Assembly: GCA_020847425.1 (NCBI GenBank)
Contig: JADLCC010000001.1
Span: 1-35,994, forward strand
Length of the DNA stretch: 35,994 bases
Reading direction: 5' to 3'
Source of the DNA: Saprospiraceae bacterium
GTDB taxonomy: Bacteria > Bacteroidota > Bacteroidia > Chitinophagales > Saprospiraceae
Below are positions 3,406 through 28,984 of this stretch, piece by piece (position 1 is the first letter of the stretch; every line of letters starts with the position of its first letter). Below the pieces are notes generated by a model. That model was given only the letters and a program-made list of their open reading frames with translations. It did not search any database and was not told the DNA's origin. Position numbers and translations under genes: made by a program.

Positions 3406-3450
3406 TGCCTGATTATCAAGCCTGATAACGAATAACCCAAAACTGATAAC
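3406..3450. repeat. GATAAC heptamer element, copy 1
   Basis: A GCCTGATTATCAA-like lead sequence is followed in 7-nt phase by TGATAAC, GAATAAC, CCAAAAC and TGATAAC (3423-3450). It lies just past the stop (3460) of the minus-strand gene. Two further copies occur at 4811 and 5281, in the same position relative to minus-strand stops. Confidence 0.6.
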
Positions 3451-3459
3451 TACTTTCAA

Positions 3460-3762
3460 TCAGTGTTTCACCTGCAATTTAGCCAGCAACTCCGTCGAAA
3501 CGGGATTGGCATACACACCGTAAGCATCCACCAGCACACCCTTATGTCCGTCTTTGCCTTCAATGGCGTATAAAACCGAACTATCGTCGGGATTGGTGGC
3601 GCCTTCAAAACGGTGTACCTCCACAATTTCGAACTCTTCCGGCCGGAGTTCCAGTTCCAGACCAGCGCATACAACACAACTTTCTTTCAGGTTGAAGTCG
3701 TTGGTAAAACCGCGTTTGCGCAGGTCATCGATGGCTTCTACAAGGGCCGGGTATTTTTTCAT
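3460..3762 (-). CDS. Conserved Bacteroidota small protein (often labelled phosphoribosylpyrophosphate synthetase)
   Basis: From the ATG at 3762 the protein has 100 residues. It begins MKKYPALVEAIDDLRKRGFT, followed by NDFNLKESCVVCAGLE, EEFEIVEVHRFEG, DDSSVLYAIE and KGVLVDAYGVYA. I recognise this pattern as a short protein widespread in Bacteroidota. Database entries sometimes carry a PRPP synthetase name, but the protein is far too short and has no PRPP-binding motif, so I treat that name as a misannotation. The open frame extends 31 codons upstream, but the conserved start is MKKY. The paired cysteines in SCVVC could bind a metal. The function is unknown, and it is convergent with nothing obvious upstream. 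Confidence 0.8.
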   Translation of the reverse strand: MKKYPALVEAIDDLRKRGFTNDFNLKESCVVCAGLELELRPEEFEIVEVHRFEGATNPDDSSVLYAIEGKDGHKGVLVDAYGVYANPVSTELLAKLQVKH

Positions 3763-3884
3763 AGCCGGTATTTTTGGATACAAGTTAAGCCAAAAAAACT
3801 TCCGGGCAAGGAATATATCCCGTTTTTGGTTTCTTCTTATACCTTTAGGCATCACATTTTACTTGTAATCAGCCTTGTATCAAC

Positions 3885-4817
3885 ATGCCAAATCAAATCA
3901 ATTGGAATAAAATCGGGGTGTACATCCTTTTGACTTTCGGGATCAGCTGGACGATAGCGGGCATTATGTGGCTGCTTGGCATTTCACTGGGAAGCACAAC
4001 ATCCGTCATCCTCATTGCGGGGTTGTATATGCCCGGGCCTGCCCTTGCCACGTTTGTGCTTCAAAAATATGTGTACAAAGAAGGATTCCAGCAGTATGGC
4101 TGGCGTTTCGACAAAAAAGCATGGAAATGGCTGGTCGCTACACCCCTGCTATTTGTAGCCCTGATTCTTTTGACATTTGCCATTATCGGGATTTTAGGTA
4201 ACCTGCATATTGTGGAGCAATTCGGGCAACTGGATTTTTCACAGGAAGGATTTGACCGGCAGTTATCCGCACTACTGGACGAAAAAGTGGATATGGATAA
4301 TATTAATTTGCCATCCTTGCCGCCAAAAATCATGTTTCTGGCTTTTATCGCACAGGGAATAATTGCGGGCTCAACGGTGAATTTACCGTTTATGTTCGGT
4401 GAGGAATTTGGCTGGCGCGGACTCCTGCTCAGGGAAACACAAGCACTCGGGTTTGTTAAATCGAGCCTGTTTATTGGTATTGTCTGGGGACTCTGGCACC
4501 TGCCCATCGTACTCATGGGCCATAATTATCCAAGCAATCCTTATTGGGGCGTACTCATGATGTGCCTGTTTACAACAGCATTATGCCCGTTGTTCGCCTA
4601 TGTAAGGCTTAAAACAAAGTCAATACTTGGCGCATGTATGTTACACGGAATGATTAATGCCACAGGCGCCTTGTTTGTGCTATACGTTGCGAATGGAAAC
4701 GAATTTTTCAGTTCCATTGCAGGCTGGGCAGGTGTGCTGGCAGGGTTGATCATCGCTTGCTCGATCTATCTGCTGGATAAAAATTTCATTCGCGACTTTA
4801 GTAGTACCAATGCTTGA
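3885..4817 (+). CDS. CPBP-family intramembrane glutamic endopeptidase
   Basis: The 310-residue multi-pass membrane protein has hydrophobic segments at about residues 10-32, 38-60, 83-105, 150-172, 191-211, 220-242, 248-268 and 275-295. It carries the three CPBP (Abi/CAAX protease) motifs: EEFGWR at 173-178 (the EExxxR glutamate pair and arginine), WHLP at 204-207, and HGMIN at 254-258 (HxxxN). Members cleave substrates within the membrane. Bacterial ones act in prenyl-protein-like processing, bacteriocin immunity or unknown roles; the substrate here is unknown. The ATG at 3885 fits the family start. Its stop codon lies inside the GATAAC element at 4811 and faces the convergent DUF4296 gene. 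Confidence 0.92.
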   Translation: MPNQINWNKIGVYILLTFGISWTIAGIMWLLGISLGSTTSVILIAGLYMPGPALATFVLQKYVYKEGFQQYGWRFDKKAWKWLVATPLLFVALILLTFAIIGILGNLHIVEQFGQLDFSQEGFDRQLSALLDEKVDMDNINLPSLPPKIMFLAFIAQGIIAGSTVNLPFMFGEEFGWRGLLLRETQALGFVKSSLFIGIVWGLWHLPIVLMGHNYPSNPYWGVLMMCLFTTALCPLFAYVRLKTKSILGACMLHGMINATGALFVLYVANGNEFFSSIAGWAGVLAGLIIACSIYLLDKNFIRDFSSTNA

Positions 4818-4848
4818 TGATCAACACGGATAACCAATAACGAATAAC
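4811..4848. repeat. GATAAC heptamer element, copy 2
   Basis: TGCTTGATGATCAA is followed by GGATAAC, CAATAAC and GAATAAC in strict 7-nt phase (4828-4848). The last heptamer ends exactly one base before the stop codon of the minus-strand gene (4849-4851). The lead sequence contains the TGA stop of the plus-strand CPBP gene. Confidence 0.65.
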
Positions 4849-5178
4849 TTATTTCAGCATAGCCGCCGTATCCAGCAGTACTTGCGCCTGCTCCAGCAAT
4901 TCTTGCATTTTACCCATATCATTGGCGTAAATGCGCAGGTTCTTTTCGTGCTGTTCCTGCGTTAGTCCGTGCATTTGTAGCACCTGCTGAAAATACGCCT
5001 GCATCAGGCTGTCTTTATCATAGCCAGCAATACCGTTGGTAGCGGCATCTGCGATACTCAGGTCGGCAAGCACACGCGCCATTTTTTCATCTGAAACACT
5101 GGGGCGCTCAGCGGCATTCTGGAAATTACAACTTCCCAATAGTACAACAGATAACAGGAGCAGAATAAGAATTTTCAT
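4849..5178 (-). CDS. DUF4296 lipoprotein
   Basis: The 109-residue protein starts with a lipoprotein signal (hydrophobic stretch, lipobox LLGSC with the lipidated Cys at 17). The mature part has the DUF4296 pattern: KMARVLADLSIADAA near residues 33-47, a YFQQVLQMHGLTQEQHEKNL segment in the middle and a helical C-terminus. DUF4296 proteins are small envelope lipoproteins found mainly in Bacteroidota; their function is not known. The SixA-like gene lies upstream on the same strand, separated by 147 bp that include a heptamer element, so the two are probably not one tight operon. Confidence 0.82.
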   Translation of the reverse strand: MKILILLLLSVVLLGSCNFQNAAERPSVSDEKMARVLADLSIADAATNGIAGYDKDSLMQAYFQQVLQMHGLTQEQHEKNLRIYANDMGKMQELLEQAQVLLDTAAMLK

Positions 5179-5280
5179 GGATAGCGGTGGTGGTTAAGGG
5201 TTGAAAGGGGAGGAAAAAGCCATTTCAATTTTTCCTTTTCATCTGCGTGATTTAAACTACTGGACTAAATTCTTTGTAAA

Positions 5281-5325
5281 TGCTTGATTATCAACCCTGA
5301 TAACCGATAACTAATAACCGATAAC
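5281..5325. repeat. GATAAC heptamer element, copy 3
   Basis: TGCTTGATTATCAA, a near-palindrome centred on TTGATTATCAA, is followed by TGATAAC, CGATAAC, TAATAAC and CGATAAC in unbroken 7-nt phase (5298-5325). The array ends exactly one base before the stop codon of the minus-strand phosphatase gene (5326-5328). Confidence 0.7.
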
Positions 5326-5823
5326 TTACCTGTTCACCTCTTTAGGAAAATAACAGGCTTTCACCCGGCTGTTCCCTTCGTACATGTTTTTCCAGGTTTC
5401 CGCTTCGGTTTCAATCTGAACGATTCCACAGGTCGGAACGTTGTCTATAAAGTCATCGGAAAACAAATTGGCGACGTCGGTGAACGTGGGGTTATGGCCG
5501 AACAGGCAAACCACCCGGGCGGAATCCGGCAGACTGCTGATTATTTTGAGGATATCCGTAGGATCGGCCTCGTAAATATTTTGTTCCCGCAGCACCTGTT
5601 CATCTGCAATATCAAATTGTGCTGCAAAAAAAAGTGCCGTCGTCAGGGCGCGTTTGGCTGGACTGCTGACCAGCAAATCCGGTTGAACGCCAAGATTGGC
5701 AAGCATTTGGGCCATCATAGGCGCCTCCCGCTGGCCCCGTTCGTTGAGCGGCCGGTTGAAGTCGCGAAGGCCGGGATTATCCCAGCTCGATTTGGCATGG
5801 CGAATAAGAAAGAGGGTACGCAT
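5326..5823 (-). CDS. sixA: SixA-like phosphohistidine phosphatase (histidine phosphatase superfamily)
   Basis: The 165-residue protein starts MRTLFLIRHAKSSWDN, with the RHA motif of the histidine phosphatase fold (catalytic His at 9). It continues with RPLNERGQREAP, then SSPAKRALTTA (substrate arginine) and LFGHNPTFTD (second histidine). The length and the RHAKSSW signature match SixA, which removes phosphate from histidine on phosphotransfer proteins; the native substrate here is unknown. An in-frame ATG exists at 5868, but the ATG at 5823 gives the family N-terminus. A TACCTTTG box ends 5 nt before it, so the mRNA may be almost leaderless. The symbol is by similarity only. Confidence 0.88.
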   Translation of the reverse strand: MRTLFLIRHAKSSWDNPGLRDFNRPLNERGQREAPMMAQMLANLGVQPDLLVSSPAKRALTTALFFAAQFDIADEQVLREQNIYEADPTDILKIISSLPDSARVVCLFGHNPTFTDVANLFSDDFIDNVPTCGIVQIETEAETWKNMYEGNSRVKACYFPKEVNR

Positions 5824-5828
5824 GGCTA

Positions 5829-5836
5829 CAAAGGTA
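5829..5836 (-). promoter_or_regulatory. Possible -7 box of the SixA-like gene
   Basis: TACCTTTG on the minus strand matches TAnnTTTG and lies 5 nt upstream of the ATG at 5823. No clear -33 TTTG was found, so this rests on one box only. If it is used, it excludes the upstream ATG at 5868 as start. Confidence 0.3.
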
Positions 5837-5930
5837 CAGATAAGCGTTTGAAAACCAGGCCGATTCATCGTACATTTGAGGTTTCATTTTTGAAAAATAA
5901 TACTCCCCGAGCAGCTTCACCAAAATTGTC

Positions 5931-7622
5931 ATGCAACAAAAACTCTGGCTCAAAGACTTTGAACACCATATCAGCGCGCAAACCTGGAGTGCAGCTGATA
6001 TGCTCCTGCAAGCCGGAGCGGTGAAAAATTTAAGAGAGGTGGAAAAACATTTCTGGGTAGCCATGGTCAGTACTGATGAAGGCCACTACGAAACGGAAAT
6101 GATCATTTCTCCGCATAAAATCAAAGCTTTTACCTGCGAATGTTTTGGAGAAGGCCGCAGACTGATTTGTCCCCATATTGCCGCTTCCCTGCTCCGATTG
6201 AGGCAATTTCTGGATCAGCGGGCGGAAGAACGCCGGGTTAAGGCAGAACAAAAGGTGCACAAAGAACGCAGCCGTTTGACCGTACAGGATGCGCTTGAAA
6301 ATGCCACACCGGAAGCAATCACGGAGTTTGTGCTGGAATACGCCCGCCGCGACCGCGATTTTTCCCTGGCCTTAAAAACCTGGTTTGCCGGTTTGGTGAC
6401 GGTCGCCGAAAATCCATACCTGCTGGTGCTGGATTCGGTTATTCCAACTGGTAAAGTTTTTCGCGAGCCGGAATTTCGCCGCCTCCGCAAAACCCTGGAT
6501 GACATGAGCATGCAGGCAGAGGGTGCGTACAACCTCCATAATTTCCAGACCAGTTTTCAGGTGAATGCAGCAATTGTGCAAAAACTGGGTCCATTTTTAC
6601 CAAAAGCAGGTGAAAACCGGTACACAGCGCTGCTTCAATACTACCAGAGCGCTTTACAACACCTGATTACCCTGCAAAAAGATACCCATACTGCTCAGGA
6701 GTTGCGCGACGCGGTTTGGGAACTGCTTTTTGAACAAGGGCGTACCGGACTTACACCACCTGAAAGCGAACGGGAAGTGATCAGGTGCCTGAGCAGTACG
6801 GCGAAAGACGCTTCCAGGTTCGAACAATTCAATCGCCTTTTTGATGAAACGCCGGCGCCCGCACCTGCCTTTATCCTGCACCTCTTTATAGCGGCGCTGG
6901 CAGAACGGGGCGCCGCAAGTTCCGTCGTTCGGGTGCTGGAGGATTTTGGCGAGCAACCGGAAAAAGTCAAAAACGCCATCTTGGCGCTCTATTACCTGCA
7001 ATACTGGGAGGCCGTTACCCTGGCAAGCGAGGCTTTTTTGAAAAAAGAAGGTTTGTTGCCCGCCTGGCACCGCGAACTGGAGGATATCATGTTGTACATC
7101 GCCGAACAAAAAGGGGATATCAAGCGACAACAATTTCTGTTGCGGCAGCGATTTCTGCTTTCCGGTAGTTTTGAATTGTATGAAAAACTGAAACACCTTT
7201 CGGGTGCAGGCTGGCCTGCCATACGCCAGGAACTCGCATCGACACTACAAGCCAGAGGAGAACGGTATAAACTCGCAGCCATGCTCGCGCTGGATAAAGA
7301 CCTGACAGCCCTCGCACAGTTACTGGACCAGGAAGGCGATATTCGTCAGTTTCAGCGTTTTGAAACCCTTTTCCTTCCTGAAGAGCGCGCTTTTGTACGC
7401 GATCGTTATGTGGCACTGCTCGGCGACTACCTCGGCGAACATTTCGGGCAACCCGCCGCCGCATATGTACGACAACACCTCGCCACGCTTTTGCAAAAAG
7501 GAGAACCTGAACTGGTCAGGGAAATTATGCAATACATCACCGCCAGATATCCCGACCGGCCTTCACTGCCGGATGAACTGGCGGAGTTGTTCCCTAAAAC
7601 AAAAAGAAGGGTGCTTTTGTGA
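5931..7622 (+). CDS. SWIM zinc-finger protein
   Basis: This 563-residue soluble protein has a SWIM zinc finger near its N-terminus: C69 and C71 (TCECFG) with C80 and H82 (ICPHIA), the CxC...CxH pattern. The remaining 480 residues are helical and rich in Leu, Glu and Arg, with no helicase, nuclease or transposase motif that I can recognise. SWIM domains bind nucleic acid or protein partners in MuDR-type transposases, SWI2/SNF2 helicase neighbours and RAD51 accessory factors. Stand-alone bacterial members are uncharacterised. Its ATG at 5931 lies 107 nt from the divergent phosphatase start. Its TGA stop is part of the first unit of the heptamer hairpin at 7619. Confidence 0.82.
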   Translation: MQQKLWLKDFEHHISAQTWSAADMLLQAGAVKNLREVEKHFWVAMVSTDEGHYETEMIISPHKIKAFTCECFGEGRRLICPHIAASLLRLRQFLDQRAEERRVKAEQKVHKERSRLTVQDALENATPEAITEFVLEYARRDRDFSLALKTWFAGLVTVAENPYLLVLDSVIPTGKVFREPEFRRLRKTLDDMSMQAEGAYNLHNFQTSFQVNAAIVQKLGPFLPKAGENRYTALLQYYQSALQHLITLQKDTHTAQELRDAVWELLFEQGRTGLTPPESEREVIRCLSSTAKDASRFEQFNRLFDETPAPAPAFILHLFIAALAERGAASSVVRVLEDFGEQPEKVKNAILALYYLQYWEAVTLASEAFLKKEGLLPAWHRELEDIMLYIAEQKGDIKRQQFLLRQRFLLSGSFELYEKLKHLSGAGWPAIRQELASTLQARGERYKLAAMLALDKDLTALAQLLDQEGDIRQFQRFETLFLPEERAFVRDRYVALLGDYLGEHFGQPAAAYVRQHLATLLQKGEPELVREIMQYITARYPDRPSLPDELAELFPKTKRRVLL

Positions 7623-7729
7623 ATCGTGAGTCGTGAATCGTGAGTAGTACTTCGCTCAAGGCAAATGCTAATACTTGGGCAAAGTACCACTCACGACTCA
7701 CGACTCACGATTCACGACTCACGATTCAC
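7619..7729. terminator. Heptamer hairpin (CGTGAAT type) between convergent genes
   Basis: The left arm is four 7-nt units of the form GTGARTM (7619-7646), and the right arm is their complement (7703-7729, extended by AAGTAC at 7682-7687). About 27 bp pair perfectly at the base. The stop of the SWIM gene is inside the left arm, and the S8 peptidase stop (7733-7735) lies 3 nt beyond the right arm. The position suggests a bidirectional transcription terminator; there is no classical U-tract. Confidence 0.65.
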
Positions 7730-7732
7730 CAT

Positions 7733-10417
7733 TCACATCTTCAAAATCTTCCCTTTAAACACATACCCATCCCGCTGGGCGGACACCACGTACATTCCTG
7801 ACAACCAATCTTTTGTATTGATCGTTATGTCCTTAAACCGCCCTAAATGCGTGGCGCCGGACTGAACGACACGACCGTTAATATTACAAACAGTCCAGGT
7901 CCATTCACCGCAAGCGTCTTCCGGAAAAGCAATCCGGACAAAATCCCCGACCGGTTGCGGGTAAATCCGCAACTCCATAGTTTTCCTTGCCGTTAGTGTG
8001 TAGGGCAAAGGTTCTCCCAGCAGTTCGATACAATAGTCTTCCACCTGACCGTATTCAAACGATTCACAAGGAAGGGGCGTGGTATTCGTCAGGCTTTTAT
8101 ATTTCATCATTACCCGCATACGGGTGAGCCCCTGGGTTGTGAATGCAGGCGCAGTTATCTGTCCTGAAATGGGGGCGTCGTGGGCAAAACCGGGGTCGAA
8201 TGCCAGTTCATCCATGTCATTAAAATCGCCGTCCATATTATAATCAATAAAAACCCTGAAAAACTCTTTGAACGGCAGACCGACATAATCGGGTGTAATG
8301 GTCACGGGGTGCATACTGAGCGGCGCTATTTGAAGGATATTATCGGAAATACCGGTGAGGTTCTGATACCCGGAGCCGGCAATCCCGGAGTTGTGCGCCC
8401 AATCGCCGACAGACACGCTTTCAATCCATTCATAGTTGGATTGTCCACCTGTGGCAGCGCAGTAACTGGCATCCAGGCAGGAGCCGCAACCCGAGGTTTG
8501 AAAAACGAAGCTCGCTCCAAATAAGGTATAACCCGTATCACAAACGGACTGAAGTTGTAATTCATATTCCGTGCAGGGAAGCAAGCCTTCAATCTGATAA
8601 GCGCTGGAAGTCGTTTCACCGAATTCCCAACTGGAAACGCCAATGGCGCGATACCGGAGCCGGTAGGTATTGGCTGCGAGTACCTGTGGCCAGCTGATCG
8701 TACAATCGACAGAACCCAACTGGTTGATCTGTACCGAAACAGGGGGATTGCAACAGCCATCCGTGCTGAATACAAACGGTTCCGACCATTCACTCCATTC
8801 GCTTGCGGATGTACAATAGGCGGCAAGCGCAAATTCGTATGAGGAGCACGGGCTCAGGTTATCGAGCAAAAAAGGGCTTTGTACGTTTTCCATTACAGTC
8901 CATTCAGCACTGCCGGTAATGCGCCATCGCAGCCGAATCGACTGAAAATCAGCAATTCCTATCCAGTTCAGCAAGGCAGCATCGGCAGTTATCCCTGCAC
9001 TTTGCAGGTTAAACGGCGCTGGGCAGGCCGAACATTGGTCTTCGTATTGTTGTAATAACTGGAAAAGATGTAGCCCGCCCCCACTCACGGTGCGTCCGCT
9101 CAATGCTGGGATGGGCGTAACGCTCTCCAAAATCAAGTCCTTGACCCATAAGGCAGCGGCGGCCGGATCGCTTTTGGCCAGACTGATCAAATTAGGGCAG
9201 GGCGCTGCGTACAACAAACCCGCTGCACCGCTTACCTGTGGAGTGGCAAAAGAAGTACCGGAGAAATGGCCGTAACTATTATTACTGGCAGCGGTGTACA
9301 CGTCCTGACCATATGCACCCAGGTCGACATATTGTGCCCCCCATGCTGCATTTGCCGCTTTTTCATTATCGCTGCTGAGGCTGGTGACCATTACTAAAAA
9401 ATCGCTGGGGCAGGTAGACGGCAAATCGCCGGTTTCATCTACATCGACCGGAATATTAGCGGTAGAAGCAATACTCAGAATACCTGCATGGCCCATCGAA
9501 TCAAAGGCGGCGCACCAAAGCGGCGCATCATCGGGCTGGCCGTAATTCGCGCCCCAGGAACAATTGACGGCGACCACAAAAGCGCCTTCCTGACCATAGG
9601 TACTGTTGTACTTGTTCCTGGCCTGCCATACATAATCATAAGCCTCCAGTATAGCCGCTTCTGTCCCGCCTCCTGCGACAAACATGATTTTAACCTGCCA
9701 GTTGATTCCACTCACACCTATATTATTGTCTCCTTTAGCACCGATGATGGCGCTGACAGGTGTGCCATGTGCCGTCGAATTGCCTTGGATATTGTCGTTT
9801 TGGGTCCAGACATTCCAGCCCCTTCGGTCATCGGTGTACCCATTATTGTCATTATCCACCCCGTCGTTTGGGATGTCCGACCAATTGTACCAAAGGTTGG
9901 GGCTTATATCCGGGTGTGCTGACGCGAGCCCGCCATCGATCACAGCAACTACTATGGTATCGCCGGCCGGGCTGATACCTCCTGTGGTAATATCCCAGGC
10001 AGCAGTGGCGCCGAGGTCAGCGCCGACAGTACCGCCATTTTGCCCTGAATTTAACAATTGCCATTGTTCTGCAAAAAGCGGGTCATTGGGTGTGGTATTT
10101 CTGTTTTCGACAACATGGTTGAATTGAGCGGCGCTCACTTCGGGCTGCGCGCGAAGCCACAACAATAGTTTCATCGGTTCCACATCGCCTGAATCCGGCG
10201 ATAAAAGCCAGATATTCAATGATTTAGAAACTATTTTTTCAATAGAAACAGATTGGTGCAGCGATCTTTCGAATCGGTCCAGTATCACAACAGGCGTTAG
10301 CCCATCCTGCATCCTGACCAGCAAGCCACGGTTGTGTTGGGCATTTAACTGTACAATATGAGCAAAAAATAAAAATAAAATAATGAACACAGGCAGCGTT
10401 CTTAACCTTGCGTTCAT
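7733..10417 (-). CDS. Secreted S8 subtilisin-like peptidase with FN3, GEVED and T9SS type A domains
   Basis: From the ATG at 10417 the protein has 894 residues. A signal peptide covers 1-27 (MNARLRTLPVFII..., cleavage after NAQ). A propeptide-like region follows. The S8 catalytic domain spans about 130-450 with D161 (VVAVIDGG), H217 (STAHGTP), oxyanion N285 (VNCSWG) and S389 (SGTSFATP), so all catalytic residues are present. Two fibronectin III domains lie at about 472-645, and a GEVED domain at about 660-800 (IDYNMDGDFND, then FEYGQVEDYC). The last about 80 residues are a T9SS type A sorting domain (RIYPQPVGDFVRI, then GMYVVSAQ). It should be exported by Sec and then T9SS to the surface or medium and degrade protein. 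An upstream ATG at 10480 is possible but would bury the signal peptide. It diverges from the first giant gene. Confidence 0.93.
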   Translation of the reverse strand: MNARLRTLPVFIILFLFFAHIVQLNAQHNRGLLVRMQDGLTPVVILDRFERSLHQSVSIEKIVSKSLNIWLLSPDSGDVEPMKLLLWLRAQPEVSAAQFNHVVENRNTTPNDPLFAEQWQLLNSGQNGGTVGADLGATAAWDITTGGISPAGDTIVVAVIDGGLASAHPDISPNLWYNWSDIPNDGVDNDNNGYTDDRRGWNVWTQNDNIQGNSTAHGTPVSAIIGAKGDNNIGVSGINWQVKIMFVAGGGTEAAILEAYDYVWQARNKYNSTYGQEGAFVVAVNCSWGANYGQPDDAPLWCAAFDSMGHAGILSIASTANIPVDVDETGDLPSTCPSDFLVMVTSLSSDNEKAANAAWGAQYVDLGAYGQDVYTAASNNSYGHFSGTSFATPQVSGAAGLLYAAPCPNLISLAKSDPAAAALWVKDLILESVTPIPALSGRTVSGGGLHLFQLLQQYEDQCSACPAPFNLQSAGITADAALLNWIGIADFQSIRLRWRITGSAEWTVMENVQSPFLLDNLSPCSSYEFALAAYCTSASEWSEWSEPFVFSTDGCCNPPVSVQINQLGSVDCTISWPQVLAANTYRLRYRAIGVSSWEFGETTSSAYQIEGLLPCTEYELQLQSVCDTGYTLFGASFVFQTSGCGSCLDASYCAATGGQSNYEWIESVSVGDWAHNSGIAGSGYQNLTGISDNILQIAPLSMHPVTITPDYVGLPFKEFFRVFIDYNMDGDFNDMDELAFDPGFAHDAPISGQITAPAFTTQGLTRMRVMMKYKSLTNTTPLPCESFEYGQVEDYCIELLGEPLPYTLTARKTMELRIYPQPVGDFVRIAFPEDACGEWTWTVCNINGRVVQSGATHLGRFKDITINTKDWLSGMYVVSAQRDGYVFKGKILKM

Positions 10418-18111: not shown

Positions 18112-18287
18112 CAATACAACTTTTTCCCAGTGGAACCATGTATTACCCCGGTTAACTGAAAAGGACATCTCCACCCAATTACATCTAATCTTTTTTTGCT
18201 CGCTTACTTTCTTTTTTTGTTTTGTTGCTATTGTGCAGCAAGGCTCACTTATTTATTTTATTAAAAGTTATCCAAACGAGGAATCTC

Positions 18288-21200: not shown

Positions 21201-24200
21201 GCTTCATCACAGGGCGCTAACTTCACGGCATCCTGGAACGGCCCCTCCATCAATGCGGGTAACCAGAATTCCTACACACCGCAGGTTGCGCTACCTGGAA
21301 CATACACGCTTACGGTTACCAACAACAGCAACAACTGTAGCGCTACTGATCAGGTGGTAATCCTGCAAAACAATGCTTTACCTACGGTAAATGCCGGCCC
21401 CGACACCGTTCTGACCTGTACCACACCTAATGGAATTGCATTAAATGGCAGCGGCAGCCCTGCTACGATCAGTTACCTGTGGACCGGTCCCGGCATTACA
21501 GCCGGCAATGCCAACCAGGCAAATCCCACCATCAACGACCCGGGCACGTACATTTTAACGGTCACCAATACGGTCAATTTATGTACTGCAACAGACCAGG
21601 TGGTGATAACCGAAGATTCCGGTGTGCCGATGGCGGATGCCGGAGCGGATTTGACCCTCACCTGTTCCGTTACATCCGTAAATATCGATGCATCTGCTAC
21701 CACATCCGGTAGCGGAATCGTATATCAGTGGACAGGACCGGGCATTTCCGGCGCCAATGCAAGCGCTCAAAACCCGCAAAATATCGCACTTCCAGGTACC
21801 TATAACCTTACGGTTACCAATACGAACAACAGTTGCAGCAATACCGATATAGTGCTCATTTCCATCGACACCATTCGTCCGCTGTCTTCGGCAGGAGCAG
21901 ATCTTACCCTGAATTGCTTCAATAATACTACGGATACTCTAGATGCATCCGCCTCTTCAAGCGGGGCTAATTTTACCCTGCTCTGGACAGGCCCTGCCAT
22001 CACTCCGGCCAATCAAAGCCTGCCCAGCCCCGTTGTAAATCAGGCTGGTACATATACGGTGCTGATCACCAATACCATCAATAACTGTACCGCTGCCTCC
22101 GATGCTATTGTTGTAGCAGATACTTTGCCGCCCATTGCCGACGCAGGTGCAGATGGCATCATCGATTGTGCAAACAGCGCAGTTGCTATCGGCGGAAATT
22201 CTTCGTCTGGCGCCAGTTTTGAATACCTCTGGACGGGCCCTGGTATCGACAGCACCAACCAGGACCTAGCCATCTTGAGTGTAGACGCAGCAGGAACCTA
22301 TAACCTTGTAGTCAGCAATGTGACCAACGGATGTACATCTATCAATGACGTAGTTGTTGTGGAAGACCTGGTTTATCCGGTGGCAAGTGCCGGCGTCGAT
22401 ACTGTAATTACCTGTACCAATCCCAATATCATTCTGGATGGAACTGGTTCTTCCTCCGGAGCAAACATTCAATTGATTTGGAACGGTACCAGCATCACAC
22501 CGCAAAATGAAGACTCCCCTACTCCGGATGTTACAGCACCCGACAATTACATTTTAACCGTAACGAACAATATCAACCATTGTGTTACCAGAGACACCGT
22601 GGTAGTGCTGGAGGACAAAGTATTTCCAATAGCATTGGCCGGGGCGGATACCATCCTCGATTGCCAGACCACCAGCACCATTCTTGATGGTAGCGGGTCT
22701 TCCACCGGACTCTCCATGACTTATCTCTGGACAGGACCCGGTATTACCCCTGTCAATGAAACGCAACAAAATCCATCTATTGGTGATCCGGGAGCATACA
22801 CGCTGGTCGTAACCAATATGGATAATGGCTGCTCCGACCAGGATGATGTTCAGGTGAATGAAGATGTTGCATTGCCTATGGCCGACGCTGGAGCCGACCT
22901 CGTATTGGATTGTTTACAGCCGACGCAGCCTATCGACGGTTCCGCTTCCAGTACCGGAACGAACATCGAATACCTGTGGCAGGGCGCCGGTATCAATTCG
23001 AGCAACTTTAATGTTATCAGTCCTATGGTGTCTGATTCGGGCATTTACGTAGTAACGGTGACCAACAATCAAAACCACTGTACTGCCACCGATCTGGTTT
23101 TTGTGGGCATGAATGCTGATTTGCCCATTACCTCTGCGGGTACGGATCGCACCCTGACTTGCGCCACAGACACCCTGCAACTGGATGGCGCTTTATCACA
23201 ATCCGGTCCGACCATCACCTACGCCTGGAGCGGGCCTGGTATCGTCAGCGGCGAAGCATCGCTGAATTCGCCCAATATTTTTGAGCCTGGTAATTATACG
23301 CTCACTGTAAGCAATACAGCCAACGGCTGTAGCAATACCGACCTGGTCACTGTACTGCAGGATACGATACCGCCACTGGTGCTGGCCGGCGACGACCAGA
23401 CGCTGACTTGTGCCAACAGCACCACAGGGGTTACGCTCAGTTCAGCCGGATCGAGCAGCGGCTCCGAATTTCTGATACAGTGGAGCGGCTCCGGTATTAC
23501 GCCTGCCAACGATACTTTACCCAATCCGGTAGTAACAGGCGTCGGACCCTATGTATTATCCATAACCAATACGCTGAACGGTTGCACACAAACCGATGTG
23601 GTAGTGGTAGAACAGGATCAGGATGCGCCTACCTCGATTGCCGGAGCTGATCAAACCATTACCTGTGCCACAACTGAAGTATCGCTCGATGGCAGTAGTT
23701 CAACCTCCCCCAGTGGTATTTTGGAATACACCTGGAGCGGTCCGGGCATTACGGGTGTCAATCAGCACGATCCGGCTGTTTTGGTGAGCGCATCGGGAAC
23801 CTACACCCTGACCATCGTTAACCCGATTTCAGGTTGTCAGGCAGTTGATAATGTTGTGGTTAATTTAGATACGGCAACGCCAACTGCGGCAGCATCCGGC
23901 GACACCATTACCTGCCAGACGCCTACCGGAACCTTGAGCGCCAGCAGTACGGCAACCGGTGTTGTACTCTACACATGGGCTGGTCCGGGCATCAATACAG
24001 GAAATGCCAATCAAGCGATCTTGCAGGTCAATCAGCCTGGCAATTACATTGTCACGGTTACGGCTGCCAACGGTTGTACCAATGTAGCCACAGCCACCAT
24101 GGATGTGGATGAAAATTTCCCGGTTGGCGCTGCGGAGGGTGATCAATTGAATTGTTCCAATGGCGGTGTGGGAAGTATTTCCGGTACGGTCACTACACCG

Positions 24201-25382
24201 GGCGCGAGTTTCTTCTGGTCGGGTCCAAACGGATTTAATGCCACTACCCCTACGGTATCCATCACGGTAGCAGGCGTTTATACGTTCAATATTGTAGCCA
24301 CCAACGGTTGTATTAACCCGATACCGGTTACTGTTTCCGCTGATTTTACAGCACCAACCGTACTGGCTTCCGTACCCGGTAACCTGAATTGCAGTACTAC
24401 TTCGCTTTCAATTAACGGGGCAGGTAGTTCAACCGGCGGCTCGATTACCTATGACTGGACCACTGTGGGAGGCAATATTGTTTCAGGCGTCAACACATTA
24501 TCTCCGGTAGTCGATGCCCCTGGTACTTACACATTGGTCGTGACCAATTTGCTCAACGGTTGTACCAATACGGAATCGGTGGATGTCTTAAATGATCCGA
24601 ACATTCCCACTTCATTTGACCTTACAGTGCGTGATATCAAGTGTTTTGGTGATAAAAACGGCGTAATTGCAGTGAGCGGTGTCCAAGGTGGCGTCGAGCC
24701 GTTTGTGTATAGCCTGAATGGCGGCGCAGGCAGCACGATCGATCAATACATTGGTCTCGCAGCCGGTGAATACGCCATTTCCATGGAAGACGCCAACGGA
24801 TGTCTGCTGGATACCATCGTAAGCATATCGGAGCCGGCACAATTGCTAGCCGAACTGGGCCCCGATCTTACGGTGCACCTGGGCGACAGCGTCAGCATCC
24901 ATGCAGAGATCATGTACGAAACGCCGATTGCAGACGTAAAATGGAACCTTGCGCCCAATCGCGACTCGGCCGATTGCTGCACTTTCAGTTACAAACCACT
25001 GGAAACATACCGGCATGAAATTACCGTGCGCGATTCTAACGGCTGCGTAGCCCGCGATGTCGTTACCGTAACGGTCAGAAAGGACCGGCAGGTATTTATT
25101 CCTAACATCATCGACCTCAACAGCAACAACCCGCTATCTGCCACGCTGATGATACAAGGCGGAACGGATGTTGTGAAAATCAAAAAATGGCTGATTTTCG
25201 ACCGCTGGGGCAATGCTGTGTTTGAAGTCCGAGAATTCCTGCCCAACGATCCGGAATATGCCTGGAATGGTACCGTTCGCGGTCAAAAAGGGCAGCCCGG
25301 CGTGTACGTCTGGGCAGCAGAAATCGAGTTCCTGGATGGTCAGACGGAATTGTTCGAGGGAGACGTGACGATTATGCGGTAG
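18288..25382 (+). CDS. Giant T9SS type B surface protein built of about 21 Ig/PKD-like repeats
   Basis: From the ATG at 18288 (GAGGA 6 nt upstream, a rare clear ribosome site here) the protein has 2364 residues. The signal peptide is at 1-22 (MHKKVLFSLVLLLFF...AKSQ). A cysteine-rich globular domain covers about 23-165 (CVYCDFDGYSG, VPGQTYFLMIDGS). One PKD-like repeat and a linker follow. About 21 tandem repeats of 80-84 residues span about 375-2108, each with AGADxxLxC, then YxWTGPGIT, GTYxLTVTN and xNGCTxTD. A SprB-like repeat (DIKCFGDKNGVIAV) and a CHU_C/T9SS type B domain (VFIPNIIDLN, LIFDRWGNAVF, GVYVWAAEIEF) close the protein. It is paralogous to its neighbour through the last about 250 residues. 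Expected on the cell surface; an adhesin or filament role is inference. Confidence 0.92.
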   Translation: MHKKVLFSLVLLLFFCLEAKSQVTQPCPNPPPQGGSACNTTCVYCDFDGYSGTSGGTPSVGNVICGQIVIHNDQWLGFVATSPSMSVEVTSSNCVQGEGVQIAFFSSCTAPDALECNPGFVNGEGIPLELTYNSFVPGQTYFLMIDGSFGDVCDFDIDITSGSVTPPPPDFPDQPIGPTALCPGATAVYTIPPVDNASWYRWTGPAGSRINGSATNTLQIPAPQGTTVTITFGNTPLNGNVCVGAGNACFPANQACLSVQLTPIPVTVKPPLTLCYENRVFTNPESPFQTITLPVGNTTLNATYDSYLGCDSVVRQVITVLPQIIKNLGTKYVCQGSCFVLNGISYCTPGPQQQPLIYNDVCDTILSFNIVMIPSVANIPAVPQIDCSMPNVTLNSTGSTTSSGATYRWTNATWTTLGTATTQNVSGIGTYNLIVTTSVSGTTCRDTASVTVSSTAAFPGASASGGTITCTTPNVTLQSSSPSTGVNYQWSGPGITPANQYVQNPTVSASGTYVISVTNPGNGCTSTATAVVVPNDTLPTATAIGGSISCTQPSVTLDGGSNAPNATYTWGGPGINAGNLHQENPTVLSAGSYTVTVVNPANGCSQTTSTTVNQNNTPPVASAGSDQVINCQQLSVTLNGSASGAGTFQYLWSGPGITAGNQNQQAPVVTSGGTYILNVLNTSNGCSDNDTVLISNLVAAPTANAGADGVLNCGTLSLNLNGSASSQGANFTALWSGPGINAGNQNVYSPLINQSGVYTLTITNTTNQCTATDNVTVVLNNTAPTVNAGTDQILTCSSTNGINLNGSGAPAGISYLWTGAGITPANQAIPNPNISLPGTYTLQVTNPANQCTATDQVVISQDANAPVAGAGSDQVLNCTITSVTIGSASTSTGSGIGYVWTGPGITAGNQNQSMPVVADEGTYILTVSNVNNGCATSDTVLISDQVAYPTALAGNDSTLNCVVLSITLNGSASSQGANFTASWNGPSINAGNQNSYTPQVALPGTYTLTVTNNSNNCSATDQVVILQNNALPTVNAGPDTVLTCTTPNGIALNGSGSPATISYLWTGPGITAGNANQANPTINDPGTYILTVTNTVNLCTATDQVVITEDSGVPMADAGADLTLTCSVTSVNIDASATTSGSGIVYQWTGPGISGANASAQNPQNIALPGTYNLTVTNTNNSCSNTDIVLISIDTIRPLSSAGADLTLNCFNNTTDTLDASASSSGANFTLLWTGPAITPANQSLPSPVVNQAGTYTVLITNTINNCTAASDAIVVADTLPPIADAGADGIIDCANSAVAIGGNSSSGASFEYLWTGPGIDSTNQDLAILSVDAAGTYNLVVSNVTNGCTSINDVVVVEDLVYPVASAGVDTVITCTNPNIILDGTGSSSGANIQLIWNGTSITPQNEDSPTPDVTAPDNYILTVTNNINHCVTRDTVVVLEDKVFPIALAGADTILDCQTTSTILDGSGSSTGLSMTYLWTGPGITPVNETQQNPSIGDPGAYTLVVTNMDNGCSDQDDVQVNEDVALPMADAGADLVLDCLQPTQPIDGSASSTGTNIEYLWQGAGINSSNFNVISPMVSDSGIYVVTVTNNQNHCTATDLVFVGMNADLPITSAGTDRTLTCATDTLQLDGALSQSGPTITYAWSGPGIVSGEASLNSPNIFEPGNYTLTVSNTANGCSNTDLVTVLQDTIPPLVLAGDDQTLTCANSTTGVTLSSAGSSSGSEFLIQWSGSGITPANDTLPNPVVTGVGPYVLSITNTLNGCTQTDVVVVEQDQDAPTSIAGADQTITCATTEVSLDGSSSTSPSGILEYTWSGPGITGVNQHDPAVLVSASGTYTLTIVNPISGCQAVDNVVVNLDTATPTAAASGDTITCQTPTGTLSASSTATGVVLYTWAGPGINTGNANQAILQVNQPGNYIVTVTAANGCTNVATATMDVDENFPVGAAEGDQLNCSNGGVGSISGTVTTPGASFFWSGPNGFNATTPTVSITVAGVYTFNIVATNGCINPIPVTVSADFTAPTVLASVPGNLNCSTTSLSINGAGSSTGGSITYDWTTVGGNIVSGVNTLSPVVDAPGTYTLVVTNLLNGCTNTESVDVLNDPNIPTSFDLTVRDIKCFGDKNGVIAVSGVQGGVEPFVYSLNGGAGSTIDQYIGLAAGEYAISMEDANGCLLDTIVSISEPAQLLAELGPDLTVHLGDSVSIHAEIMYETPIADVKWNLAPNRDSADCCTFSYKPLETYRHEITVRDSNGCVARDVVTVTVRKDRQVFIPNIIDLNSNNPLSATLMIQGGTDVVKIKKWLIFDRWGNAVFEVREFLPNDPEYAWNGTVRGQKGQPGVYVWAAEIEFLDGQTELFEGDVTIMR
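19413..24613 (+). repeat. Array of about 21 tandem repeats of about 246 bp
   Basis: Repeat units of 80-84 codons run head to tail. By similarity, units 3-4-5 of the main series correspond to units 6-7-8, and 9-10 again resemble 6-7, which gives a 744-bp higher-order period (for example 20451 versus 21195). Outer units are more diverged than central ones. Confidence 0.85.
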
Positions 25383-25402
25383 AGGGCGCGCGTTTCCAAC
25401 GG

Positions 25403-25495
25403 GATTGAACATTGAAAATTGGGCATTGTACATTGAACATTTTTTGAATTTTTGATTTAAAAAATGTTCAATGTACAATGCCCAATTTTTAATGT
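25403..25495. terminator. Heptamer hairpin (CATTGAA type) between convergent genes
   Basis: Heptamers GATTGAA, CATTGAA, AATTGGG, CATTGTA and CATTGAA run in phase from 25403 to 25437. The 37 nt at 25409-25445 pair with 25459-25495 with one mismatch, leaving a 13-nt loop. It lies between the stop of the second giant gene (25382) and the stop of the convergent small membrane protein (25511). T-runs next to the loop and the position support a bidirectional terminator. Confidence 0.7.
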
Positions 25496-25510
25496 CCAAT
25501 TCTTATCCCC

Positions 25511-25852
25511 TCAAAACAACAGCGGCGCATTGCCCAATCCCACCTGCCAAACCAGGGCCACAACTGCAAGTACCGGATACAGCAGTTTGCGGACGATAAA
25601 TTTGACCAGGGCCCGGTCGGGCGTAAAACGCATCTTTTCCAGCAAATCGGTATAAAAGATACGGCCGTCCTCTTCCTGAAGACCGTGTTGCTCATTCATC
25701 AGGCAGCGACCGAATACGCCGAATTGTAGCATAACCAGTGCGTAAACGGGTAGCGATATTTTCCAGGAGAACAAAAAAGGAGCAACCCAGGCCAGCAGGG
25801 TAACGAATAAATGAAGCCAGAAAAGGAGCGAAGACTTTAACTTGAGTAGCAT
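25511..25852 (-). CDS. Small membrane protein of unknown function
   Basis: The 113-residue protein (ATG 25852) has hydrophobic segments at about residues 7-28, 32-50 and 92-108. Between them lies a polar loop with GRCLMNEQHGLQEEDGR and YTDLLEKMRF. The CLMNEQHG segment resembles a conserved motif in small Bacteroidota membrane proteins loosely like DUF2784, but I cannot assign a family. A GTG at 25873 in frame is an alternative start. It converges on the second giant gene across the heptamer hairpin. Confidence 0.65.
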   Translation of the reverse strand: MLLKLKSSLLFWLHLFVTLLAWVAPFLFSWKISLPVYALVMLQFGVFGRCLMNEQHGLQEEDGRIFYTDLLEKMRFTPDRALVKFIVRKLLYPVLAVVALVWQVGLGNAPLLF

Positions 25853-25979
25853 AAAATTGAACACTTTGTTCACAAAATGTATTCACAAAGTTCACATCAG
25901 GGCAAACCAAAGGTATGGAATCTGCATGCGATATGCGCCCACTGCGATGTTTCAAAATTTCAATTTTTTCGATTAATAA

Positions 25980-26899: not shown

Positions 26900-26997
26900 A
26901 TCGGAACGTTTGTTCTTCAAACGACAACTTGTTCATTTTCATGTGCAAAGGTTCGATTTTAGGGTCAAACAAAAAACACGCTCTAACGTGTGGTACA

Positions 26998-27926: not shown

Positions 27927-28241
27927 ATGACTAATCATCCCTCCCTTTCGGAAACCCTTTTTAGCCTGGCCACCAAAGGCTACCACATCGCAGACCTGGA
28001 ACACATGCCAATGCCTGAAGAAGCCATCCAATCGCATGACTGGCGGCTCGATGCATTGCACCATGTGAAGACTGGAAAAGACCGGGGCCCTCTTGCAGTT
28101 GTTATTGCTGTCTCCAGCGCACACAAACACCTCAAATTGGCTTTTGTGCGCGAATTGTTATCCAAACAGGACTTCTCACCACTAACATTACTTAAACGGT
28201 TGTTCCCGCAAAACCGCAAATCGGGCATTCATACGAGTTGA
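27927..28241 (+). CDS. Small conserved-type protein of unknown function
   Basis: This 104-residue soluble protein starts MTNHPSLSETLFSLATKGYH and contains DLEHMPMPEEAIQSHDWRLDALHHVK followed by AVVIAVSSAHKHLKLAFV. No known domain was recognised. Histidines are frequent, but no metal motif is clear. The ATG at 27927 follows a 250-bp spacer shared with the TetR gene, which holds no other gene that I accept. The coding potential looks real from amino-acid composition and the clean terminator downstream, but the call is moderate. Confidence 0.6.
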   Translation: MTNHPSLSETLFSLATKGYHIADLEHMPMPEEAIQSHDWRLDALHHVKTGKDRGPLAVVIAVSSAHKHLKLAFVRELLSKQDFSPLTLLKRLFPQNRKSGIHTS

Positions 28242-28247
28242 GGGATG

Positions 28248-28372
28248 GTTTATGGGTAATGGTTTATAGTTTATGGTTTATGGGTTTATAGTTTATTTGG
28301 CAGCTCAGTTGGGGAAATCTCTTCCAGGAGCAGCGAAATAAACTATAAACCCATAAACCATAAACTATAAAC
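28248..28372. terminator. Heptamer hairpin (GTTTATR type) after the small gene
   Basis: Units of the form RGTTTAT run from 28248 with one inserted G. The 37 nt at 28262-28298 pair perfectly with 28336-28372 around a 37-nt loop. Further heptamers continue to 28388. The element starts 7 nt after the stop codon of the small gene. The genes on either side point the same way, so here it would separate two plus-strand transcripts. Confidence 0.65.
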
Positions 28373-28415
28373 CCATAAACTATAAACCTTTTCCAACCCT
28401 TTCGGCAGCAATAAC

Positions 28416-28423
28416 TACTTTTG
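28416..28423 (+). promoter_or_regulatory. Possible -7 box of the DUF983 gene
   Basis: TACTTTTG matches TAnnTTTG and ends 19 nt before the ATG at 28443. No clear TTTG lies at -33. The preceding hairpin isolates this gene from upstream transcription, so a promoter is expected in this gap. Confidence 0.4.
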
Positions 28424-28442
28424 CGGCTCACTCCACCGTATT

Positions 28443-28850
28443 ATGCCTTATATACTTCAGAAGGGTTCCAAAACCCACAGTATTTTTCACCTGAAATGCC
28501 CGCGTTGTCAGGAGGGTGAAATGTTTGAAACCGGCAGTTGGTCGTTTGTCAAACCGTTTGAAATGCTGGAACGCTGCCCGAAATGCGACCTCAATTTTTA
28601 TCCTGAACCGGGATATTATTACGGAGCCATGTTTATTTCATACATCTGGACCGGCTGGTTTTGCCTGCTGTTTGTCGCCATATTCACCTGGGGCCTGGGC
28701 TGGAGTATCAATGCTGCATTCGGCGTGTTGATTCTCTTTATGATGGCCAATTTTGTTTACATATTTCGCATTTCCCGCCTGATGTGGCTGAATGTGAATG
28801 TGAAATATGATCCGAATGCGGTGGAGAAGTTTGGGAAAAGTGAATCGTGA
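28443..28850 (+). CDS. DUF983 family membrane protein
   Basis: The 135-residue protein has two CxxC pairs, C19/C22 (KCPRCQEG) and C45/C48 (RCPKCDL), which probably form a zinc ribbon. The FYPEPGYYYGAMFISY segment follows, then two membrane helices at about 62-82 and 86-106. This is the DUF983 layout: CPRCxxG at the N-terminus, CxxC, then two hydrophobic segments. The function is unknown. The stop codon TGA falls inside the second unit of the heptamer hairpin that follows, so the last residues (GKSES) are encoded within the element. Confidence 0.88.
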   Translation: MPYILQKGSKTHSIFHLKCPRCQEGEMFETGSWSFVKPFEMLERCPKCDLNFYPEPGYYYGAMFISYIWTGWFCLLFVAIFTWGLGWSINAAFGVLILFMMANFVYIFRISRLMWLNVNVKYDPNAVEKFGKSES

Positions 28851-28984
28851 GACGTGAATCGTGAGTCGTGAATCGTGAGACGTGAATCGTGAGTCGTGAG
28901 TCGTGAGTCGTGAATGGCATTTAGTTAAAAAAGACATTCTTCTAACAGAATGCTATTCACGACTCACGATTCACGACTCACGAT
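28840..28984. terminator. Heptamer hairpin (CGTGAAT type, second locus) between convergent genes
   Basis: Eleven consecutive in-phase units of the form GTGARWS cover 28840-28916. The right arm at 28950-28984 is complementary to the 3' half with two mismatches. The same word is used at 7619-7729. The element contains the stop of the DUF983 gene and ends 7 nt before the stop of the convergent T9SS gene (28992). Confidence 0.7.

Follow-up and report, generated by a model that had tools for sequence, protein, structure and literature searches.

The gene ends of this Saprospiraceae genome carry modular, dispersed palindromic repeats whose arms are built from tandem 7- or 8-nt words, and we consider it probable that these repeats act as hairpin terminators or as barriers at mRNA 3' ends. 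In the window, by which we mean the whole stretch of 35,994 nt that was analysed, all seven heptamer sites of the preliminary description are present, and degenerate words mark a further junction:

3407..3452, minus strand: degenerate single GTTATYR array with a CTTGATAATCAGG tail, near the 3' end of ORF 3460-3855 (-); from sequence
4811..4849, minus strand: single GTTATYR array with a TTGATCATCAAGC tail, between the stops of genes 3885-4817 (+) and 4849-5178 (-)
5281..5326, minus strand: single GTTATYR array with a TTGATAATCAAGC tail and without a second arm, immediately 3' of the stop of gene 5326-5868 (-)
7619..7737, no strand: GTGARTC hairpin between convergent genes 5931-7622 (+) and 7733-10480 (-); from TRF and sequence
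25402..25504, no strand: ATTGAAC (CATTGAA) hairpin between convergent genes 18222-25382 (+) and 25511-25873 (-)
28245..28388, no strand: GTTTATR hairpin 3' of ORF 27927-28241 (+) and ahead of 28443 (+)
28840..28988, no strand: GTGARTC hairpin between convergent genes 28443-28850 (+) and 28992-32285 (-); from TRF and sequence
33964..34000, no strand: degenerate CTCAAC-type words between tandem genes 32464-33963 and 34027-35646; by eye

The 7619..7737 hairpin consists of 5' arm words (7619-7645), a core stem (TACTTCGCTCAAG / CTTGGGCAAAGTA) closing a loop of about 19 nt, and 3' arm words (7686-7737). The hairpin form ascribed to these sites holds for the four two-armed ones. Their stems are 40-50 bp long, and none of 200 shuffles folded as stably at the RNA level (z = -10.8 for GTGARTC 7619-7737, -9.6 for GTGARTC 28842-28988, -14.4 for GTTTATR 28245-28388 and -15.3 for ATTGAAC 25402-25504). 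It does not hold for the three YGATAAC sites (~3407-3452, 4811-4849 and 5281-5326), which are single arrays of 3-4 units each without a second arm and show no folding of this kind (z = 0.05, -0.14 and -2.46, respectively); for the site at 3406, which has one degenerate unit, TRF at score 30 gave no report. The TGA stops of genes 5931-7622 and 28443-28850 each lie within a word of their arrays, and the minus-strand genes 7733-10480, 25511-25873 and 28992-32285 have their stops in the far arm or at most ~7 nt from it. A search of the window against Rfam returned no matches at the gathering threshold.

The same design recurs throughout a 0.80-Mb sample of the 5.9-Mb genome to which the window belongs. 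Period-7 arrays occur there at 203 per Mb and period-8 arrays, a second class beside them, at 69 per Mb, compared with 0-20 per Mb for periods 4-6 and 9-12. Eighty-one period-7 rows were found in the real sequence and four in a Markov shuffle, and those four (11,065 bases, presumably runs of N) recur at every period. Across the genome, an 18-mer of GTGARTC words with at most 2 mismatches has 664+617 matches, while its reversed control has 0+2. The shuffles and reversed-pattern controls exclude a chance origin of the arrays, and an assembly artefact is unlikely because metagenome-assembled genomes from other projects share the design.

Neighbouring arrays face each other in 104 of 125 pairs (this genome together with two relatives, G155 and G164), and in 99 of these 104 both carry the identical word, whereas random arrays of this genome share a word in 29% of cases. 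A stem score of at least 36 is reached by 93 of the 149 elements in our sample, as against 9% of ~150 random sites, and is absent from the other 56. The words are mostly C-poor and 7-8 nt long. The 5' arm is richer in G than in C in every one of the 158 scored stems, and the sense strand has more G than C in 197 of the 207 arrays whose edge lies within 30 nt of a stop (three genomes pooled). Closure of all reading frames by stop codons is not a general cause of this polarity, since in a hit-picked set of 32 G164 arrays the antisense strand closes all three frames more often than the sense strand (22 vs 14), yet the sense strand is the G-rich one in 30.

Inside the word arrays, the core stems are alike between elements while their loops diverge. 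In 25 elements the two arms match at 326 of 350 core bases (shuffles: mean 300, maximum 318); these pairs were preselected, since each arm had to fit the core pattern with no more than 2 mismatches (96 matches yielded 26 pairs), and the agreement could also stem from common descent. Variants of the repeat unit are hardly more alike within an element (identity 0.882, n = 17) than between elements (0.875, n = 144; P = 0.47), and copying from arm to arm by template switching, an impression gained from a few perfect stems, is hardly supported by the array counts. In GTGARTC stems the arms agree at position 5 in 0.688 of cases (shuffled 0.593, maximum 0.766) and at position 7 in 0.766 (shuffled 0.452, maximum 0.662), much of the latter because the innermost word is fixed. 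With that word removed, 35 of 57 agree at position 5 (reached by 934 of 5000 shuffles) and 41 of 57 at position 7 (111 of 5000), the latter a weak residual sign of arm copying.

Placement ties the elements to the ends of genes. Only 2 of the 149 elements lie within genes. Over the first 0.60 Mb, 97 convergent or tandem distances from array edge to stop codon fall between -60 and 400 nt; their median is 2 nt and their quartiles are -4 and 23. Arrays occupy 19 of the 40 convergent gaps of at least 60 bp, 52 of the 178 tandem and 10 of the 59 divergent ones; counted by gene end at the same gap size, 37 of 91 convergent and 64 of 231 tandem ends bear an array. Of 61 cases between tandem genes, 41 have the array nearer to the stop of the preceding gene than to the start of the next. 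Ten of the 93 hairpins fall between divergent gene calls, at least one of them because the gene caller, which overlooks small genes such as ORF 27927-28241, missed a gene. The expectation that unlike words share a period and a place at stop codons is borne out: the census shows the period-7 excess, and the stop distances show the association, whose absence would by the preliminary description have pointed to chance.

In related species, matching gene ends often bear words of another kind. At ~80% protein identity, G155 and G164 have either other words or ordinary T-tract terminators at orthologous positions. The 7619-7737 junction bears other words in the relatives, and at the 28840-28988 junction G155 has a GTGTTTR hairpin nested within degenerate GTGAGAR-type words. 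The 28245-28388 site corresponds by eye to ordinary hairpin plus T-tract terminators in both G155 and G164, and the 25402-25504 site to a GTTGATGA-word hairpin in G155 and a T-tract terminator in G164. At the 33964-34000 junction, G155 has GTTATYR, ATAAACC and CTCAAC words and G164 has ATAAACC and CTCAAC words. A word hairpin in the window thus stands against an ordinary terminator in a relative in three comparisons. Each species has amplified its own words: GTGARTC is counted 474+455 times in the window's genome, 168+163 times in G155 and 0-13 times in the remaining 40 of the genus's 42 genomes; GTGTTTR 412+429 times in G155 and 56+54 times in the window's genome; and GTTATYR 570+538 times in G164. 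These comparisons suggest that in this uncultured Saprospiraceae group the wording of gene-end signals is changing, with their shape and place retained.

In the anatomy behind the terminator or 3'-barrier function that we favor, the stop codon is followed by tandem G-rich, C-poor words of 7 or 8 nt and then by one side of the core stem; past the loop come the other side of the core and the words in reverse complement, which lead to the opposing gene's stop or to a spacer before the next gene. A transcript running past the stop codon would bear the word array; once the second arm is transcribed, core and words would zip into a long hairpin. This hairpin might end transcription, perhaps with Rho, and/or halt exonucleases that move 3' to 5' and keep transcription from running on into the opposite gene. 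Between convergent genes it would serve both directions. Rho is suggested because T-tracts are rare, and a Rho_RNA_bind match is present in the genome. A canonical hairpin plus T-tract was found at only 9 of 208 array-bearing ends in the three genomes (2/84 convergent, 7/124 tandem) with a detector that finds few terminators anywhere, and the longest T run up to 20 nt away from any of the four window hairpins is 5. At convergent ends canonical terminators occur at 2 of 84 with an array and 13 of 118 without (Fisher P = 0.027, with the two ends of a pair counted separately and so not independent), a weak sign of mutual exclusion confined to these ends; tandem ends show none (7/124 with arrays, 16/285 without). 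Transition mismatches in the stems at own stops are G-U 63 and A-C 71 (79 hairpins, 3808 pairs; P = 0.55), and without a G-U excess, no selection on sense-RNA pairing is detected. Because T-tracts are rare and G-U pairs are not preferred, the RNA-level function is one that we infer. The part of Rho and a spread of the elements by copying from locus to locus are likewise inferred. The preliminary description's selection on termination or on protection of mRNA 3' ends is plausible from the place of the elements and their replacement of ordinary terminators; the RNA pairing test was negative.

A less probable but serious alternative is that these are selfish, REP- or MITE-like palindromes moved by a transposase, without function and surviving only where they do no harm, just past stops. 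MITEs carry terminal inverted repeats and duplicate their target site. Hundreds of dispersed copies, bursts of a single word per species and the scant sign of selection on array pairing would fit this explanation, as would the modular, nested and chimeric makeup of the elements. The genome also holds six Y1_Tnp (IS200/RAYT-type) matches, but at the one of these six loci whose flanks were read there is a different palindrome and no heptamer arrays. Selfish spread would also leave to be explained why the elements occupy the places of relatives' ordinary terminators, why the core stems are alike and covary while loops diverge, and why divergent gaps are used less than convergent ones.

The word repertoire and strand rule suggest, as previously proposed, an active process that builds the arrays. 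A broader version of this idea, which we put forward only tentatively, is that the arrays are word-agnostic marks: a process would write G-rich 7- or 8-nt words in fixed strand sense on the stop side of core hairpins, and species would periodically swap their vocabulary at conserved ends while keeping place, polarity and hairpin. The unit of selection would then be the architecture (period, polarity and converging same-word arms) instead of the sequence.

It is rather unlikely that the elements work mainly on DNA, as cruciforms or as gyrase or nucleoid-protein sites that absorb supercoils between convergent genes, with any effect on transcripts secondary. Equal numbers of G-U and A-C mismatches are what one would expect if pairing matters on DNA, and the palindromes are symmetric on both strands; however, many unrelated words per genome are hard to square with one sequence-specific protein, and more than a third of the sampled elements have no clear stem. 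Polymerase slippage, by which ordinary 7-nt simple sequence repeats would grow in unconstrained gene-end DNA, is very improbable. Heptamers are over-represented in bacterial surveys, in parts of which slippage is proposed (PMC4060949, PMC4692102, PMC4679880), a few arrays are long and near-perfect (L093 1-112, L095, L115 and L120), and identical neighbors are slightly in excess at period 8 (0.248 vs 0.195, P = 0.004; 79 arrays). Yet adjacent period-7 units are close to shuffled order (0.238 vs 0.224, P = 0.15; 251 arrays), just one of those 251 arrays is perfect, GTGARTC units even alternate slightly (0.126 vs 0.167, P = 0.037; 61 arrays), and slippage predicts neither same-word converging arms nor the polarity rule. 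Finally, a telomerase-like reverse transcriptase (cf. DRT10) writing G-rich 7-8-nt repeats from RNA templates after stops would account for the word length, the C-poor words with their G-rich 5' arm and the resemblance of units to random draws from a degenerate word, but is scarcely credible, given that the ~89% complete genome has no RVT_1 match, by a search positive in 3 of 14 control genomes, and that DRT10 products are described, in the account consulted, as cDNA and not as chromosomal arrays (PMC12632851).

If the terminator function is correct, a large fraction of the genes in this lineage finish in hairpins of nearly free sequence but set repeat length, strand bias and position, and terminators would constitute a fast-evolving class of dispersed repeats. 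Any theory of bacterial short tandem repeats has to account for the 7/8-nt period, the polarity seen in 158 of 158 stems and the near-random order of degenerate units, and these features may also bear on the unexplained heptamers of Xanthomonas and Nostoc. Sister species with different words at one gene end provide a natural comparative experiment.

Among known systems, the intergenic heptamer repeats GGGAATC in Xanthomonas and GGGGA(C/T)T in Nostoc (Rehm et al. 2015, PMC4692102) come close: they are tandem, degenerate in unit and G-rich on the sense strand, lie mostly within 50 bp past a stop, some overlapping it, form 70-75 convergent inverted pairs per Xanthomonas genome, and differ in length and sequence among close relatives. 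Unlike the present arrays, they are treated in that report as one word type per genome and studied as G-quadruplexes (PMC4692102); here, a quadruplex motif occurs in 3 of 217 arrays of the window's genome and any GGG in 70, for example in some RATGAGG arrays. Stop-adjacent heptamers are thus on record for these two genera (PMC4692102); among the open-access literature matches listed, none describes such hairpins in Bacteroidota. In one survey table, heptamer repeats (7n3) score 0.75 for Bacteroidetes and 0.00 for most phyla (PMC4060949), and TAACTGA repeats are intergenic tandem heptamers of Beggiatoaceae, cyanobacteria and five Bacteroidetes (PMC4679880). The latter are reported as direct repeats of a single invariable word that, in the main species, mostly shortly precede starts (PMC4679880); the words found here differ and, between tandem genes, mostly lie nearer the upstream stop. 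Three tandem heptanucleotides in Calothrix receive passing mention (PMC4692102).

Cyanobacterial STRR heptamers share with our elements the presence of several words per genome, and are not known to have a gene-end hairpin architecture. An intrinsic terminator is a hairpin followed by a U-tract. Our elements resemble it in forming a hairpin directly past the stop and in sharing its position in relatives, and differ in their rare T-tracts, longer stems and repeated words. They also resemble REP, BIME and REPIN sequences, amplified families of palindromes that lie outside genes in hundreds of copies, either between them or past their ends (PMC2817692, PMC3733652, PMC3116915). In REP/REPIN the palindrome measures 20-40 bp and is accompanied by a GTAG or CGTC tag (PMC3733652), and the RAYT (Y1) transposase that goes with them is flanked by the same repeats. 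No link to a RAYT emerged at the one of six Y1_Tnp loci read here. The mostly extragenic elements of our sample are likewise numerous, with the difference that their arms are tandem 7- or 8-nt words in many families per genome, and the roles proposed for REP, BIME and REPIN in termination and mRNA stabilization (PMC2817692, PMC3733652, PMC3116915) are those that we propose here.

Seven sites in the window are tandem arrays of 7-nt words:

about 3407, 4811 and 5281: YGATAAC words, each site a single GTTATYR array when read in the sense direction of the adjoining minus-strand gene
7619-7737: hairpin with GTGARTC arms
25402-25504: hairpin with ATTGAAC arms
28245-28388: hairpin with GTTTATR arms
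28840-28988: hairpin with GTGARTC arms

The hairpin form proposed in the preliminary description held for four of these, whose arms are the tandem heptamers and whose predicted RNA folds were far more stable than shuffled sequence (z -9.6 to -15.3). It did not extend to the three YGATAAC sites, where RNA folding against shuffles revealed no comparable stem; all three GTTATYR arrays carry a similar tail (TTGATAATCAAGC, TTGATCATCAAGC and CTTGATAATCAGG). The window spans an entire contig of its genome (5,900,036 bases in 628 contigs, with 89.5% completeness and 3.8% contamination), and the gene at 32464-33963 shares 87-90% protein identity with its closest named relatives among the matches listed, Saprospiraceae/Bacteroidota MAGs. 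The same contig carries two adjacent giant ORFs (10697-18034 and 18222-25382; 2445 and 2386 aa, each about one fifth of its length) and, at its end (1-975), 6.9 copies of a 141-bp unit with 71% matches, coding repeats inside a script-called minus-strand reading frame. Directly 3' of the 34027-35646 stop, a 70-bp unit made of GGATT words occurs about three times over (35649-35851); orthologues of this gene end in GTTGAGGG words in G155 and GTTTATRR words in G164, two relatives at about 80% protein identity.

The genome-wide scan called for in the preliminary description revealed a strong excess of the period of seven. With a fixed rule (15 of 18 positions equal at the tested lag), an unselected sample comprising the window and contigs C2-C81 (no more than 20 kb from each; 798,847 non-N bases) contained 203 arrays per Mb at period 7, 69 at period 8, 15 at 9, 20 at 10, 7.5 at 6, 5 at 12, 1.3 at 4 and none at 5 or 11. 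An earlier, more stringent scan of sequence shuffled by a first-order Markov model yielded nothing past the four rows found at every period. The sample held 149 elements, two of them inside genes, which extrapolates to approximately 1,100 in the whole genome. Unselected contigs of G155 (140 kb) and G164 (40 kb) had 315 and 99 period-7 arrays per Mb. The claimed proximity to stop codons was equally apparent: across the first 0.60 Mb, with a gene caller of our own, the median distance from array edge to stop was 2 nt (quartiles -4 and 23 nt; 97 distances from -60 to 400 nt). Among gaps of at least 60 bp there, arrays occupied 19/40 convergent, 52/178 tandem and 10/59 divergent ones, at least one of the last being a caller error, since the missed ORF 27927-28241 made the window's GTTTATR element appear divergent.

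The elements share a polarity. In the three genomes, array neighbours no more than 220 nt apart had their G-rich strands facing each other in 104 of 125 pairs (the rest being same-strand, 12 and 8, or pointing away, 1), and 99 of the 104 facing pairs used an identical word, against 29% for random arrays of the window's genome. G exceeded C in the 5' arm of all 158 stems scoring at least 50; a further 207 arrays, counted because they lay no more than 30 nt from a stop, had G>C in 197, C>G in 6 and a tie in 4 when read in gene sense. Between the word arms sit a core stem and a loop. Cores recur: GGTACTTCGCCCAAG-like or GGCATCCAGTTAGAA-like with GTGARTC, CCGAGCGTGATGTCGG with RATGAGG, and GTGTGGTAACGCTTGG or TTTCAGGCTGG with GTTATYR. 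By eye, a CTTCGC core was found under GTGARTC, GTGTTTR and, in G164, GTTTATR arms, GTAACGCTTGG with both GTTATYR and GTGTTTTR, and TTTCAGGCTGG with both GTTATYR and TTATGAG; because similar cores occur under different words, the arms look like modules that can be separated from the cores. GCTTCGC/GCGAAGC cores recur under differing words in many elements, and d(GCGAAGC) is a DNA mini-hairpin of very high stability.

In 25 elements from a genome-wide list built on the core pattern (26 pairs among 96 matches, less one repeated pair; selected for both arms within two mismatches, Y positions free), core arms agreed at 326/350 positions, against a mean of 300 and a maximum of 318 in 5000 shuffles, with start-to-start spacings of 30-32 nt. 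Six of nine available loops were 20 nt long; across their inner 14 nt these averaged 37% identity, at most 71%. Word-arm variants, by contrast with the cores, agreed scarcely better within (0.882) than between (0.875) elements, with a weak sign of arm-to-arm agreement at GTGARTC position 7. One G155 element (L150, about 7720-7890) is chimeric: a GTGAATC unit outside the GTGTTTR array is mirrored in the opposite arm, the whole enclosed by an outer pair of degenerate GTGAGAR-type words.

Related species carry different words at the same gene ends. By eye, the 5931-7622 gene ends in GTGARTC in the window, GTGTTTR in G155 (83% identity), GATGAAY in G164 (79%), ATGATGT in G159 and TTATTTG-type words in G163, starting at the stop or a few nucleotides away; these are five of the 24 orthologues listed, and several others (e.g. 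L124, L125, L129 and L130) have no array and a next start within about 20 nt. At junction 25,382-25,511, G155 has a GTTGATGA-word hairpin and G164 a plain T-tract terminator; at 28,241-28,443 both have plain terminators. Where both genomes had word-built ends, words differed in 13 of 16 comparisons by eye (in one, L076, the words of the window's genome are 10-11 nt, not heptamers), one shared GTTTGATG, and two, at 33,963, shared a CTCAAC tail below different upstream words. Recovered orthologous ends numbered 22 in G155 and 19 in G164, with 12 and 10 array-free in both genomes and a few bearing an array in just one; they are examples rather than rates, since some G155 and G164 contigs were chosen for containing hits. 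Gene L087 3976-4825 of the window's genome, which had been paired with its neighbour's place, was left out.

A 3'-end role is the best reading in view of where the elements lie, their hairpin shape and polarity, and the ordinary terminators that relatives have at the same places; the elements are probably functional 3'-end hairpins or terminators. A long RNA hairpin would form after the stop, acting both ways between convergent genes, and would end transcription or protect the transcript 3' end; Rho, encoded in this genome, could provide release in place of the U-tract used elsewhere. Canonical terminators were rarer at convergent ends with arrays (2/84) than without (13/118; P = 0.027, paired ends counted separately), and alike at tandem ends (7/124 and 16/285); on shuffled sequence the detector reported 0/202 and 5/409, respectively. 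Stems anchored at a gene's own stop displayed no G-U preference (63 G-U versus 71 A-C mismatches), a result that speaks against a stem selected as RNA. It may follow that the elements are primarily dispersed repeats, with termination as an effect. That they are selfish repeats alone, a view to which these mismatch counts lend something, is less likely than the functional reading.

Simple slippage as the origin of the arrays is not supported, because units lack the order it would leave: neighbour-unit identity at period 7 was 0.238 against 0.224 in shuffled order, and one of 251 arrays was perfect (three genomes). Period-8 arrays were slightly high (0.248 versus 0.195), and GTGARTC arrays alternated slightly (0.126 versus 0.167). 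A search of this genome found no RVT_1 reverse transcriptase, which makes a DRT10-type writer resembling telomerase (PMC12632851) less likely. Six Y1_Tnp matches occur; at the one locus of the six whose flanks were read (L207 5445-5924, contig C79), a different palindrome, ACGTTGGGCCTCTCCGAGGC, is repeated ahead of the gene at 5200-5400, along with its complement.

The vocabulary is broad and species-dependent. The commonest words in the sample were GTGARTC, RATGAGG, GTTATYR, GTGAGAR and GTGTTTR at period 7 and GTGTTTTR at period 8, with TTATGAG, GTTTATR, TTTTGCC-type and ATGATGA rarer; by eye, five or six positions are fixed and one or two free, chiefly for transitions. Where counts are high, the two strands are nearly equal. 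GTGARTC numbered 474+455 in this genome, 168+163 in G155 and between 0 and 13 in each of the remaining 40 of the 42 genus genomes, and occurred in 8 of 150 family genomes, this one included. GTGTTTR numbered 412+429 in G155, 84+85 in G164, 56+54 here and at most 5 elsewhere. GTTATYR, whose reversed control was not clean (as many as 170+153), reached 570+538 in G164, 466+486 in G155, 393+383 here, 277+277 in G190, 223+233 in G193, 100+66 in G169, 26+29 in G154 and at most 12 elsewhere. Among single stretches from 20 family genomes (two all N), several contained different words of 7-8 nt, such as GGACATT (G168), GAGTGTTT (G169), GTTTGAA (G170) and CTAACTG (G104), and others had no such words. 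In G093, of the same family, the reversed GTGARTC control matched 31+30, and the genome has its own heptamer, AGTGCTR, with nearly equal strands. A MAG titled Chitinophagales (UWPOB_CHIT9; L042) holds a 29-nt octamer array, ACTAAAATACCAAAACACTAAAACACTCA, in identical copies at 215-570, 2459 and 4280, spaced 109 nt four times and then again further on, a tandem repeat of octamer-bearing units.

Heptamer repeats have precedents. Those of Xanthomonas and Nostoc, as described by Rehm et al. (PMC4692102), are single-word repeats of unresolved function that often lie near stops in the sense orientation and sometimes form converging pairs; two further papers give a heptamer-repeat score of 0.75 for Bacteroidetes (PMC4060949) and place TAACTGA repeats chiefly before starts in their main species (PMC4679880). 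The elements described here belong with gene-end heptamer repeats, as a variant that is also built like a REP-type palindrome. Unlike the single-word repeats so described in Xanthomonas and Nostoc, they draw on many words per genome, and their words differ at orthologous ends.
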